Below are positions 40,301 to 62,939 of a stretch of DNA of 64,000 bases, piece by piece. Numbering within the stretch: the stretch's first letter is position 1; each line of letters begins with the position of its first letter. The DNA lies in NCBI GenBank assembly GCA_026929865.2, contig CM049405.1, forward strand, positions 23,012,001 through 23,076,000. The letters run 5' to 3'. The DNA is from Hyperoplus lanceolatus (Eukaryota; Chordata; Actinopteri; Uranoscopiformes; Ammodytidae). Position numbers and translations under genes: made by a program. The notes beneath the pieces are model-generated. The model ran no database searches and was not told the DNA's origin. It saw nothing but the letters and a program-made list of their open reading frames with translations.

Positions 40301-43300
40301 TTACTAATTCAGGTTATGCACACACATTCATACGCTGCGGTAACTTGGTTAGTGGGTTAGTGTAAATGGATGGGGGAGTGTTCGTGGGGGGGGGGGGTAT
40401 ATGTGTCTGTGTGTGTGTGTGTGTGTGTGTGTGTGTGTGTGTGTGTGTGTGTGTGTGTGTGTGTGTGTGTGTGTGTGTGTGTGTGTGTGTGTGTGTGTGT
40501 GTGTGAGGAAGCTGACAACCCAGTGAAGTAACAGCACCGATGTGATAGAAATGTACAAATAATAAAGTGTTCGTTTTCGTTTTCAGCCACACTTTGGATT
40601 TGTGCCAACAGTCAATCTGTTGTCACTGTGATAATTTCCCTGTCTGAATTGTCTCTTTTATCCACATGCTCATATATGAAAAAACAACGAGAAACACAGT
40701 TTTGCGTATTCATGACCAAAAAACAGCATTCTCCAGGAGAAATCCAACTGTAAAAATCTAATTTTCCACTCTTCCACCCAGATTGCAAAAACATTAACAT
40801 TATCATGGCCTGAAGGAAATGGTTGTTGCAGCGAGCCACACTATAAGTTGTTCAGTTAAGTGCATGCAATTACACTGGTTGTGACGGTAGGGATCATTTT
40901 CAGTGTAATGCATGCCAATCAACTAGACAGTCAGGCTCACTATGCTCTGACAGACTGAAAATTCGGAAAAATCAAAACTGATGGAACAGGTGCAGTGCTT
41001 TTTGCGGTGATTGTAAAGCCGCCCTGGAATCAGAGAGGCACAGGGATTACTGTTTCAATTAGAGGGGACAGCTCACCATATGGGTCCCTTTGTCTAATCT
41101 GTGTTCATTATGAGAGACACTGTGATACATATTAAAGGCCTTTTGACCAGGAAACCAGACAGATGGAAGCCCCTTCATTAAAAGCAAGTGGAATCACACT
41201 TACTTTTCACGTGAACCAACAGGCTTTCTTCAGGTTTATTTTTCTAATGTGGATGGAAATATTTTTGTTGATTAAGTCATTCAGGTTACCAAAACAAAAG
41301 TAGCCAACTATGAATGGACTCATCTATCTATCTATCTATCTATCTATCTATCTATCTATCTATCTATCTATCTATCTATCTATCTATCTATCTATCTATC
41401 TATCTATCTATCTATCTATCTATCTATCTACCTATCTAGCTATCTATCTAGCTATCTATCTAAGAATAGTTTGGGTCCGAGTACTGATCCCTGTGGAACT
41501 CCACATGTTACTTTCATTAAATCCGATTTGTCATTTGCTCTCTATTGTAGAGATAGTTACTTCTACCAAGCCATGTGTGTGCTACTCCTCTAATGCCATA
41601 TTTTTCAAGTTTTCTCATTAGTGTTGTATGATCTATTGTGTCAAATGCCTTTTTAAGGTCTATGAATACTCCTACTGTGAATTTCTTATTTTCGATTGCT
41701 GTTGATATTTCCTCTACTAATTCCATGACTTTGTGGTGGATCGGTTTGATCTGAAGCCATATTGGTGGTCACTCAGTAAGTTGTGCTTTTCTATGAAGTG
41801 GTCAAGTCTTAGAGCAAAAAGTTTCTAATATTTTTTGAAAACTGAGGAAGTAGAGAGATTGGTCTGTAGTTTGAAAAAGGAGTGTATGTCTCCATTTATA
41901 TAGATGGGTATGATCTTTGCTATTTTCATTTTGTTAGGAAATATTCCTGTTTGGAATGATTGGTTACATATATGGATTAACGGTTTAGCTATAGTTTCTA
42001 TAATAGTTTTTACTAGTGTCATATCCATATCATTACAATCAGAAGATTTTTTTATTTTCTATCTATCTATCTATCTATCTATCTATCTATCTATCTATCT
42101 ATCTATCTATCTATCTATCTATCTATCTATCCATATATCCATATATCCATCTATCCATCTCAAAACAATTGTTAGCAATTAGGAACCTTGAATGAATTGT
42201 GAAAACATTCGTCAGCATGTCTTTGTCTTCCTGCTATGATATACTAAACATGTATATGACTATGTTAAAAATAAGGTGAAACAAAGCCCTTCAAAGTACC
42301 TACTGAGGAAACAACTACATCCTGTGTAGCTTCTCCCATGACTGATAGAACAGACTTATCTAATGACTGATGGAGCTGCTGAGTGGACCTGATTGTGCAA
42401 CGTGTCTAGCTTTGAAGTACTTATAAATGAAACATTTGTACATGCAGTGCATAGCAAAAATTCCCATTGTGACTCATTTACACCATCCAAATGGACTCTG
42501 GACTAAATGTTGTTCTGTGAGTAAGAAACATATCTTGCATGAAATGTATTCTTGGGTCCAAATGACATATTAATACAATTGTGAATTTATTTTGTTGACT
42601 TGTTTTGCAGCACTCCGCCTGGAGTTAATTGTCCCAATAGATTTGGATGAATCAAAGGAGCACCCCCTTCTACTAATTCTGTATGTCATTTTTATTCCAA
42701 CATATGTTCTACATATTTTAAGAGTACTCCTTAACACATGTTAAATGGCTCAAATTAATTAAGTAATGTATTGAATGAAGAAGCTATGGAAACAATTATT
42801 GGAAATTAAACTTGAACGTTGGGAGTGGGGGTTTCAAAATACATTTTAAGAGGATTGTAAAACAAGAAAAAAATGGTTGAACTTTGAACGTGGAGTCAGC
42901 GATTGCTGAAGGCTTGTGATCAAAATGACTTTTTATCTTCTTACAATCTTCTACCTGTCTGTACTGTGTGTGCGCTGATAATAAAAATCCAGTGTTAATA
43001 CACAGCCTATAGGAGGTTTTCTAAACATAGGGTATGTTGCTAGCTACAGTGAGCACCATTTGTTTACGTATATTTTGTGTACATAATATCAGTTAACAGA
43101 GCCTAGTCTGTGTATTAACACCAGATTAACATTTCGAACAGGTAGCGTATTGTGAGAGTATATTCATACTGTCCCTCCACAGTGACAGCACCCCCGGTGG
43201 TCAGGCAGTGAGTGAGCGTTTCTCTCTGAGCTGGGACTCTGTGCTGGTCAGCTCAGACAATGTGATTGTGGCTCGTCTGGACGGACGGGGCAGCGGCTTC

Positions 43301-61800: not shown

Positions 61801-62939
61801 GGTCTTAAAAAATGCATTTTTATGTGTTTTAAGAACAAAGTCAGAAAATTAACAACATATGAACAAATCCTTCAGCAATAACCTTCAGGATAGTGCTCAG
61901 AATTATTTAGGAAATTTCATGTATTTAAGCACTTTGGAAGTTAAGAATTTCGGTTCAGACTATTGCAAAGAAAAATAATGTTGAGATAATGGCCTAATGT
62001 ATAAGAGAAATATACAGATGCACGCAAACAAAAAAGGTTAAGTGAAATAAGCACCTCAATGTACATTCTGGATCTTTTTTTATACTAGTATGAAAGAAGA
62101 CAAAATTAAAATGAACCTCATGTTTGACAGGTGTCTCACCTCAAGACTGCAAGTCAAGATGCTCTTTATTCTGGTCTATCCATGCCGTGTAATACTGTTT
62201 AAAACGTGGATTCACCTCACTTTTGTATCAGAGGTAAAAAGATTTATTAATAGAACAACATTCCAAGTTAAGCTATACTCTCGGCGTCCACAAAAACATG
62301 CAGGCTCAATTTCTAATACTCGAATGATTCACTTATACTTGCCTTGCCAGATGGGAGGTTTGAAGAGTGTAAGATTCGACATGATACAGGATTTATGTAG
62401 GGGATTGTGTGCTACTCACCGTAGAGCTTCCAGTCTGTCACAGGTGACATGGCACATGCACATTTGAAGAGGCTGTCAGTCGACTTGAGCATCATTAATG
62501 TTATGTACGCTCCATAACCCTGAGGAGACAGACGCAAACGTTCATGCAACTTCAATCGTTAAATCCTCCAAGCTGTAAAACTATAATAAATAAAGTAAAC
62601 TTCAATCATCGCAGTCATTAACTAGGATTTTATCTAAATAGCCTCTTGACAATTTCAAGCATGTCTGCTATAAATCTAAAACGTGTCTACTTTAGTGGAA
62701 TTTAACAACAAAACATACATTCAGCAATTAAAACAAGTAAAGTAGAGAAGAACAACTGTCATCGATTTACATACTGTACATGGATATTTTTCTCACCAGC
62801 AACAACATGTATAATGCATGTAGCAAAAACAGACTGGAGATTGAATTCATTTACATTTCATTATAGAGGGGAACGTTGGCTCACCTTTCCAAACACTGCT
62901 ATCCGTGTCCGATCGATATATGGAAATTTTGTGATGTAT
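58696..62939 (-). CDS. dpp10: Gene 2: DPP10 C-terminal part (5'-partial, last 6 coding exons)
   Basis: Family role as for gene 1: a membrane glycoprotein partner of Kv4 channels with no peptidase activity. Six minus-strand exons join in frame to 165 residues and a TAG stop. They cover only the C-terminal hydrolase domain: [85 protein letters not shown], then [10 protein letters not shown] and an all-acidic tail. The nucleophile position is Gly (G-K-G-Y-G-A), the DPP10 state; DPP6 has Asp there. Triad Asp and His remain. The [17 protein letters not shown] and DEGH blocks point to DPP10 rather than DPP6. The upstream 195-nt exon expected next was not found before the window ends, so the gene continues to the right. 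Exon lengths equal those of gene 1. Confidence 0.93.
58834..59941 (-). other. Gene 2 last intron
   Basis: Holds the GACA/GATA microsatellite at 59420-59625. Nothing else recognised. Confidence 0.5.
59420..59625. repeat. (GACA)n(GATA)n microsatellite
   Basis: About 10 GACA units, then about 30 GATA units, then interrupted tagatcaataaa repeats. Confidence 0.95.
59942..60015 (-). CDS. dpp10: Gene 2 exon (74 nt)
   Basis: Acceptor cccag, donor gtgtgt. Encodes [18 protein letters not shown] then NYSMQ. Confidence 0.94.
60327..60399 (-). CDS. dpp10: Gene 2 exon (73 nt, triad Asp)
   Basis: Acceptor tcgcag, donor gtaaga. Encodes [11 protein letters not shown] and LMLVHGTAD. Confidence 0.93.
60400..61234 (-). 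other. Gene 2 intron with (CA)n
   Basis: Contains the microsatellite at 60549-60648. The rest is unremarkable. Confidence 0.5.
60549..60648. repeat. (CA)n microsatellite
   Basis: About 49 uninterrupted CA units. Confidence 0.95.
61235..61293 (-). CDS. dpp10: Gene 2 exon (59 nt)
   Basis: Acceptor gcacag, donor gtgcgt. Encodes [20 protein letters not shown], with the first Ala codon split. Confidence 0.93.
61294..62419 (-). other. Gene 2 intron with a duplicated segment
   Basis: 61455-61553 and 62140-62236 are direct repeats of about 100 bases sharing gatgctcttta, tctatccat and cacttttgtatcagaggta. AT-rich between. Confidence 0.6.
62420..62519 (-). CDS. dpp10: Gene 2 exon (100 nt, nucleophile elbow with Gly)
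   Basis: Acceptor cctcag, donor gtgagt. It begins GGT TAT GGA GCG (GYGA), so Ser is replaced by Gly and the usual second Gly by Ala. Continues [16 protein letters not shown]. Confidence 0.93.
62520..62884 (-). other. Gene 2 intron
   Basis: Nothing recognised. Confidence 0.5.
62885..62939 (-). CDS. dpp10: Gene 2 exon (55 nt)
   Basis: Read on the minus strand: acceptor tttcag, donor gtgagc. Encodes [18 protein letters not shown]. Same length and phase as gene 1 exon 45859-45913. Confidence 0.92.

Follow-up and report, generated by a model that had tools for sequence, protein, structure and literature searches.

A dead DPP6/DPP10-group gene tail to tail with dpp10 in Hyperoplus lanceolatus, and one exon probably exchanged between the two

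How can two genes so diverged that their synonymous sites are saturated share one exon that is almost identical? This question is raised by a locus of the fish Hyperoplus lanceolatus (assembly GCA_026929865.2, 806.7 Mb in 527 contigs), where two genes of the DPP6/DPP10 group, here called gene 1 (+ strand) and gene 2 (- strand), lie tail to tail on contig CM049405.1 (C11 below). The window, that is, the whole stretch of DNA that we analysed, comprises 64,000 nucleotides (C11:23012001-23076000), and coordinates without a contig prefix are window positions. Gene 2 is a canonical-looking dpp10. We consider it very probable that gene 1, a catalytically dead member of the group, is intact and arose by an ancient duplication, that the duplication preceded the split between gene 2 and a second dpp10 copy on contig C24, and that exon 20 of gene 1 was lately converted. 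An earlier note, made from the letters of the window, had described a converging pair of old DPP10-type paralogs, and the near-identity of exon 20 escaped it because the near edge of gene 2 exon 20 lies 80 bases past the window end.

A near-identical exon in a diverged pair

Exon 20 of gene 1 (195 nt, 43183..43377, +) and exon 20 of gene 2 (195 nt, C11:23076274-23076080, -), which encode part of the alpha/beta-hydrolase domain, are identical at 191 of 195 nucleotides (97.9%), with two synonymous and two nonsynonymous differences. The remaining 22 exons compared between the genes agree at 1148 of 1907 positions when pooled (60.2%; range 46.5-73.3%; here and in the 605-codon set below, gene 2 exon 17 is taken as 48 nt where its GT donor gives 45, so that three intronic bases, one codon, are included). 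The number of synonymous substitutions per synonymous site (dS) is 0.043 in exon 20 and at saturation in the rest of the gene pair. BLAST delimits the tract to 43180-43384 at 97.6% identity, and alignment of 400 bases on either side found no likeness between the introns that flank exon 20 in the two genes. The two copies form an inverted repeat, 20.7 kb apart, and no third copy above 63% was found among the matches listed in a genome protein search with gene 1 (63 exon matches with E up to 1; 63 of 85 candidates scored).

A tree built from this exon by itself joins gene 1 to gene 2 (support 73.3/75), with the C24 copy as their sister (94.7/76 for the three). The tree without exon 20 conflicts with it, as gene 1 then falls outside the gene 2/C24 pair; the row for a DPP6-type gene on contig C21 had a wrong middle part in this pair of trees, which was cut out of the 11-sequence tree used below. 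These comparisons argue strongly for a recent overwriting of exon 20 by interlocus gene conversion confined to the exon. Because the exon-20 tree joins gene 1 and gene 2 to C24, with the rest of gene 1 outside, the donor was probably gene 2 and the recipient gene 1.

After the duplication, nearly all of both genes would have diverged to saturation at synonymous sites, and conversion between the inverted neighbours would then have overwritten the 195-nt exon, with gene 2 the likeliest donor and gene 1 the recipient. The tract would end sharply at the exon borders because conversion is limited by the lack of intron homology, the introns sharing no sequence for it to run on. Given that conversion requires some prior similarity in the exon, we infer that several rounds of conversion after the duplication are likelier than a single jump across 60% identity. 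If this account is true, the exon 20 tract offers a clean example from nature in which homology has restricted conversion to a single exon.

As exon 20 is a 97.9% inverted repeat with matching phase, an in-frame tail swap is also conceivable: crossing-over within it would flip the common tail region and exchange the last six exons in frame. This idea was tried and set aside. No such swap is visible: in an approximately unbiased (AU) topology test, a placement with the two genes exchanged was rejected before exon 20 (AU 7.6e-05), and after it the present order was preferred, with AU 0.098 for the exchange in what is a short part.

Age of gene 1 and rival explanations

Our main tree left out exon 20 and comprised 11 sequences and 627 columns, after removal of columns with gaps in more than 5 of the 11; it was built under LG+I+G4 and LG+C20+G4, with eight topologies in the AU test. 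One of its sequences, that of a divergent DPP6/DPP10-type gene on contig C10, is without its first exons, and the C21 sequence shares only 347 columns with gene 1. Gene 2 and the C24 copy are sisters under both models (99.5/100 and 93.2/92, respectively). Placement of gene 1 as sister to gene 2 was rejected under both (AU 0.0036 and 0.028), and it was rejected in the propeller (AU 0.0075) and hydrolase (AU 0.0029) parts separately. Compared segment by segment with exon 20 set aside, gene 2 is nearer to C24 than it is to gene 1 in 21 of 22 cases, the remaining one being a tie. Gene 1 predates the split of gene 2 from C24.

Synonymous sites agree with great age. Over 605 codons without exon 20 (six bases of gene 2 exon 14 dropped, last exon cut to 36 nt), they are saturated between gene 1 and gene 2, a dS of 2 lying 7.5 log-likelihood (lnL) units below the best value and a dS of 1 being worse by 43.5, and, in line with an intact gene, a ratio of nonsynonymous to synonymous rates (omega) of 1 is worse by about 129 lnL units. 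A younger date had been hinted at by four-fold sites at conserved residues in exons 21-26 (19 of 28 alike); we rejected it, as a two-class codon model gives a dS of about 2.2 there, with a dS of 1.2 about 2.8 lnL units worse, and the 605 codons are saturated. Thus, the earlier note was right to propose an old duplicate instead of a recent species-specific one. Because the order dpp4-like, dpp10, engrailed is the same on C11 (16.87, 23.07 and 32.13 Mb) and C24 (5.04, 7.1 and 13.89 Mb), these two contigs would be the two copies expected of the teleost genome duplication. From this gene order, the gene 2/C24 split would be that genome duplication, and the duplication that gave rise to gene 1 appears to be older than it.

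Could exon 20 have stayed alike without conversion? Purifying selection on its nucleotides, or an overlapping function, would fit a likeness limited to the exon with differing introns, and the same alternative has been raised for exon 2 of coelacanth vasotocin and mesotocin, where identity is confined to the exon and where the authors, in the part of their paper used here, doubt conversion as the GC content at third codon positions (GC3) is low (PMC2315648). For the present locus this explanation is highly improbable: constraint would need to act on two genes of a single locus only, and exon 20 is not frozen by selection, because the C24 copy, which has an intron inside the exon, is identical to gene 1 at only 127 and to gene 2 at only 129 of 195 nucleotides. 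Human DPP10, in addition, matches gene 1 at just 40 of 65 exon 20 residues. An assembly error, by which the inverted pair or the common exon would be a false join or a miscorrected consensus, has in its favour that a single assembly is the basis. It is nonetheless very unlikely, given that the contig carrying the pair measures 33.7 Mb, with zero N in the window or in 200 kb of flanks, that the tract, with its four coding differences, stops at splice borders between unlike introns, a pattern that assembly software would have no cause to create, and that the genes differ far too much to represent two haplotypes of a single gene. Still harder to credit is a young, lineage-specific origin of gene 1 as a fast-evolving inverted duplicate of dpp10. 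The two genes do adjoin, exon 20 is nearly identical, and the gene 1 branch measures 0.40 against 0.17 for gene 2, but the rejected sister placement, the saturated synonymous sites outside exon 20 and the unalignable introns around it all speak against such an origin.

The depth of the duplication is the point on which two readings, both with the same duplication and conversion, compete. The whole protein under LG+I+G4 places gene 1 outside DPP6+DPP10 (96.6/92, by 7.0 lnL units; 91.6/91 without the C10 and C21 rows), and the hydrolase part alone places it next to the outgroup (88.4/85). Gene 1 might then be the sole survivor of a third lineage of dipeptidyl peptidase-like proteins (DPLPs), a tail-to-tail partner of the DPP6/DPP10 ancestor, older than the vertebrate genome duplications from which DPP6 and DPP10 came, lost in tetrapods but surviving in one ray-finned fish or more, in part through repeated re-copying of one exon from its neighbour. 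We hold this history tentatively, as something we would sooner doubt than assume, its odds being lowered slightly because the propeller part alone does not favour a deep placement. The shallower reading, in which gene 1 is a dpp10 duplicate of ray-finned fish only that predates the teleost genome duplication, comes close to an even chance. It agrees with the position of gene 1 beside dpp10 and not dpp6, its topology has an AU of 0.219 under LG+I+G4, and it has against it the deeper placements of the whole protein and of the hydrolase part just given. Gene 1 as sister to all DPP10 stays within the AU test (AU 0.114 and 0.072 under the two models), and for gene 1 on the DPP6 side LG+I+G4 gives rejection (AU 0.033) and LG+C20+G4 retention (AU 0.072). 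The dating was resolved only partly, and only once paralogs from the same genome were added. With PDB references only (DPP10, two DPP6, DPP4 and FAP), all six topologies for the last six exons lay within the AU 95% set; full-length gene 1 alone gave rejection of gene 1+DPP6 (AU 0.002) and retention of the other two topologies; and full-length gene 1 plus the six exons of gene 2 retained all seven.

Several results weigh against the account that we prefer, that of an old, intact and lately converted gene 1, or against parts of it. Under LG+C20+G4, support for gene 1 outside DPP6+DPP10 drops to 66.3/70, and of the eight topologies tested the best, by a slight 1.2 lnL units, joins gene 1 to the pair of fish dpp10 copies as their sister. 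The propeller part alone puts the C10 gene, not gene 1, beside the outgroup (78/47), the two readings being 0.7 lnL units apart, with the fish-only duplicate behind. The earlier note's proposal of a third DPPX/DPPY-type gene is favoured for the whole protein under LG+I+G4, and is not favoured in the LG+C20+G4 topology test or in the propeller part. Human DPP10 has no firm place with gene 2 and C24, falling with weak support (39.4/41) on the DPP6 side of the 11-sequence tree. The exon-20 tree, on which the direction of conversion depends, has only 65 columns. The GC signal that repeated conversion should leave is only faint, GC3 being 0.69 in exon 20 against 0.55 and 0.60 pooled in the other exons of the two genes, with single other exons reaching 0.73 and 0.78; the doubt about conversion at low GC3 applies here also, countered because the C24 copy and human DPP10 show exon 20 to be free to change. 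In exons 21-26, 43 of 69 codons are identical at identical residues, where 27 would be expected from codon use, an excess that could come from older conversion there or from a softer dS limit. As for intactness, a motif scan of 100 kb upstream found no match for gene 1 exon 1; the same scan gave three matches on the gene 2 strand, none of which we claim as exon 1. Lastly, His768, at the dimer interface of DPP10, is Tyr in gene 1.

Structure and predicted product of gene 1

Spliced protein-to-DNA alignment found 23 intact gene 1 exons in the window (4208-49933), once five aligner artefacts had been removed, a 6-nt piece at 31317 and four at the front of the alignment (1499-4003). All 22 introns between them are GT-AG, and the joined frame is open as far as the TAA. 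Two further exons were located a short way upstream, outside the window: exon 2 (C11:23011193-23011301), which encodes the transmembrane segment NWKGIGISLLVIVMVLSLIGMSIVLLSK, and exon 3 (C11:23011870-23011965), so that exons 2-26 form a single open frame of 774 residues with AG/GT borders. The 25 exons found equal the DPP6/DPP10 core in number; DPP6 and DPP10 are described, in the part of the source drawn on here, as having 25 core exons in common (PMC3973911). Exons 4-19, in family numbering, encode the beta-propeller and the beginning of the hydrolase domain (4208..42680, +; all with AG/GT borders and no stop). They lie at 4208-4302, 6058-6132, 24017-24069, 24453-24534, 26520-26640 and 27153-27307 (exons 4-9), 29794-29891, 29984-30107, 30205-30243, 30853-30960 and 32408-32493 (exons 10-14), and 32597-32644, 33165-33286, 39451-39498, 39953-40051 and 42611-42680 (exons 15-19), all from spliced alignment and translation. 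After exon 20 come exon 21 (55 nt, 45859..45913), exon 22 (100 nt, 46015..46114), exon 23 (59 nt, 46907..46965), exon 24 (73 nt, 48147..48219), exon 25 (74 nt, 48685..48758) and exon 26 (49793..49933, stop TAA at 49931-49933), all on the + strand, with an AATAAA at 50064.

The predicted protein matches DPP10 best in the PDB (925 bits; DPP6 726, DPP4 514), contains the Pfam domains DPPIV_N (E=1.9e-107) and Peptidase_S9 (E=6.5e-48), and is 43.9% identical to human DPP6. Its nucleophile elbow, in exon 22, reads GKAYGGF, and that of gene 2 GKGYGAY, versus GWSYGGY in active enzymes; at the position of the catalytic Ser, gene 1 has Ala (Gly in DPP10, Ser in DPP4), and the preceding residue is Lys, not Trp. 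With the DPP10 residue numbers given in the consulted part of PMC4350108, gene 1 retains this Lys650, Asp568 (at the Tyr547 position) and both glutamates, all 8 disulphide cysteines, and all 5 alignable glycosylation sites (111, 119, 257, 342 and 748; site 90 is not alignable). Across the six DPLP genes of this genome, the dead nucleophile position varies: Ala in gene 1, C10 and C12, Gly in gene 2, Val in C21 and Asp in C24. Glycosylation site 119 is absent in DPP6, and a DPP4 sequon is seen in that region by eye; the site may be ancestral, and we gave it zero weight for placement.

By sequence likeness alone, the transmembrane segment of gene 1 is identical to that of gene 2 at 18 of 28 positions, and at 18 of 28 also to what we take to be the human DPP10 sequence. 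Because the inactive-site residues, cysteines and glycosylation sites match DPP10, gene 1 reads as a DPLP-type dead enzyme that retains what it requires to fold and be glycosylated, and its product would likely be a type II membrane glycoprotein of this type. These features, with the DPP10-like transmembrane segment, uphold the DPP10-type label of the earlier note. As the DPP10-like helix is retained, a role as a Kv4 accessory subunit is our first choice by judgement, and the better bet over an ectodomain-based or other role; by analogy with the family, the product would dimerise and modulate Kv4 through its transmembrane helix. If gene 1 is indeed an intact third DPLP type, this fish would offer a natural variant among Kv4 accessory subunits whose dead site differs.

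The locus and its relatives

Gene 2 ends with exon 26 (58696..58833, stop TAG at 58696-58698), preceded on the - strand by exon 25 (74 nt, 59942..60015), exon 24 (73 nt, 60327..60399), exon 23 (59 nt, 61235..61293), exon 22 with the GKGYGAY motif (100 nt, 62420..62519) and exon 21 (55 nt, 62885..62939). It continues past the window to about C11:23153858, up to its transmembrane exon, five tiny leading pieces, one 15-nt piece and one 3-nt piece having been dropped from the alignment there; the 43183..62939 that the earlier note gave for the pair was therefore too small at both ends. Identity to human DPP10 (64.4%, against 55.0% for gene 1), score (208 bits to DPP10 in the PDB for the window part, against 166 to DPP6) and gene order make gene 2 look like a canonical DPP10 orthologue. 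Its 28-residue transmembrane segment is identical to what we take to be the human DPP10 sequence.

Much else that had been read from the window holds. The stop codons of the converging genes are 8.76 kb apart (about 8.8 kb in the note); the lengths 55, 100, 59, 73 and 74 nt are common to both genes, with the same exon-start phases (2, 0, 1, 0, 1, 0) and AG/GT borders; and the matching layout with introns present speaks for a duplication of genomic DNA, a retroposed origin of gene 1 being ruled out by the presence of 22 of 22 introns between its window exons. The layout cannot date the duplication, because it is the structure of the DPP6/DPP10 family. Over the last exons, 75 of 161 aligned residues are identical (46.6%), slightly under half as had been said. 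The further comparison with the distance between DPP10 and DPP6 was roughly correct, the present distance being slightly greater, as human DPP10 and DPP6 agree at 77 of 150 residues (51.3%) over the same stretch.

The 8.76 kb between the genes (49934..58695, no strand) carry Tc1-like transposase fragments identified by Pfam; such fragments and one reverse-transcriptase fragment lie at 44299-44847, 54443-54961, 54678-55022 and 41517-41768. Positions 9548-10474 match C11:23165705-23164776, upstream of gene 2, with 98.6% identity over 931 bp, probably as a recent transposon copy. Within the 18-kb intron of gene 1, a 67-bp tandem unit (17328-17463) and its reverse complement (23586-23721) flank 6 kb and may be the ends of one element. 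Rfam gave no match at its gathering threshold.

The genome holds at least six DPLP genes. Besides the pair, these are, each assembled in part, a DPP10-type gene at C24:7.1 Mb (bait score 1643.5 with human DPP10 and 1224.0 with DPP6), the divergent gene at C10:26.55 Mb (C10:26548001-26561000; GKAFGGY; bait score 1481.0, against 1314.5 with DPP6), whose branch length is 0.69 and whose placement is unstable between models, and DPP6-type genes at C12:15.6 Mb (2066.0 with DPP6, against 1606.5) and C21:6.17 Mb (1373 with DPP6, against 1063). In the C24 gene, a 448-bp GT-AG insert, probably an intron gain, splits exon 20 into 129+66 nt (C24:7098254-7097612). Active DPP4/FAP-type genes with GWSYGGY lie at C11:16.87 Mb and C24:5.04 Mb, and the genome protein search gave a further DPP4-like match at C5:2.38 Mb. 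Engrailed lies at C11:32.13, C24:13.89 and C21:10.52 Mb, and INSIG at C11:32.29 and C21:10.54 Mb, with none on C24; C21 carries the matching DPP6 block. In human, EN1 and INSIG2 are presumably near DPP10, and EN2 and INSIG1 near DPP6.

How does gene 1 compare with known systems? With DPP10 it has in common the domains, the 25-exon core, the type II transmembrane segment, the dead elbow with its preceding Lys, the Asp at the Tyr547 position, the cysteines and the glycosylation sites; it differs in having Ala for Gly at the nucleophile and Tyr for His768, in its 55.0% identity to the human protein and in standing outside the gene 2/C24 pair. With DPP6 it shares the inactive S9B fold and the exon layout, at an identity of only 43.9%. 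The C24 copy is of the DPP10 type like gene 1, but is sister to gene 2 and has the extra intron in exon 20. DPP6 and DPP10 are treated as the two DPLP genes in the consulted part of PMC3973911, and a literature search of titles and abstract starts found no report of a duplicated fish dpp10. The closest precedent, from the part of PMC2315648 drawn on here, is the vasopressin/oxytocin pair, old paralogs that lie tail to tail in human and rodents and have one near-identical exon, as gene 1 and gene 2 do: 197 bp of exon 2 are identical in cattle, which was attributed to gene conversion, the identity extending 135 bp into the intron, and exon 2 is alike in several species. Those are peptide-hormone genes, whereas the present case concerns one of 25 exons in one genome, with a tract that ends at the exon borders.

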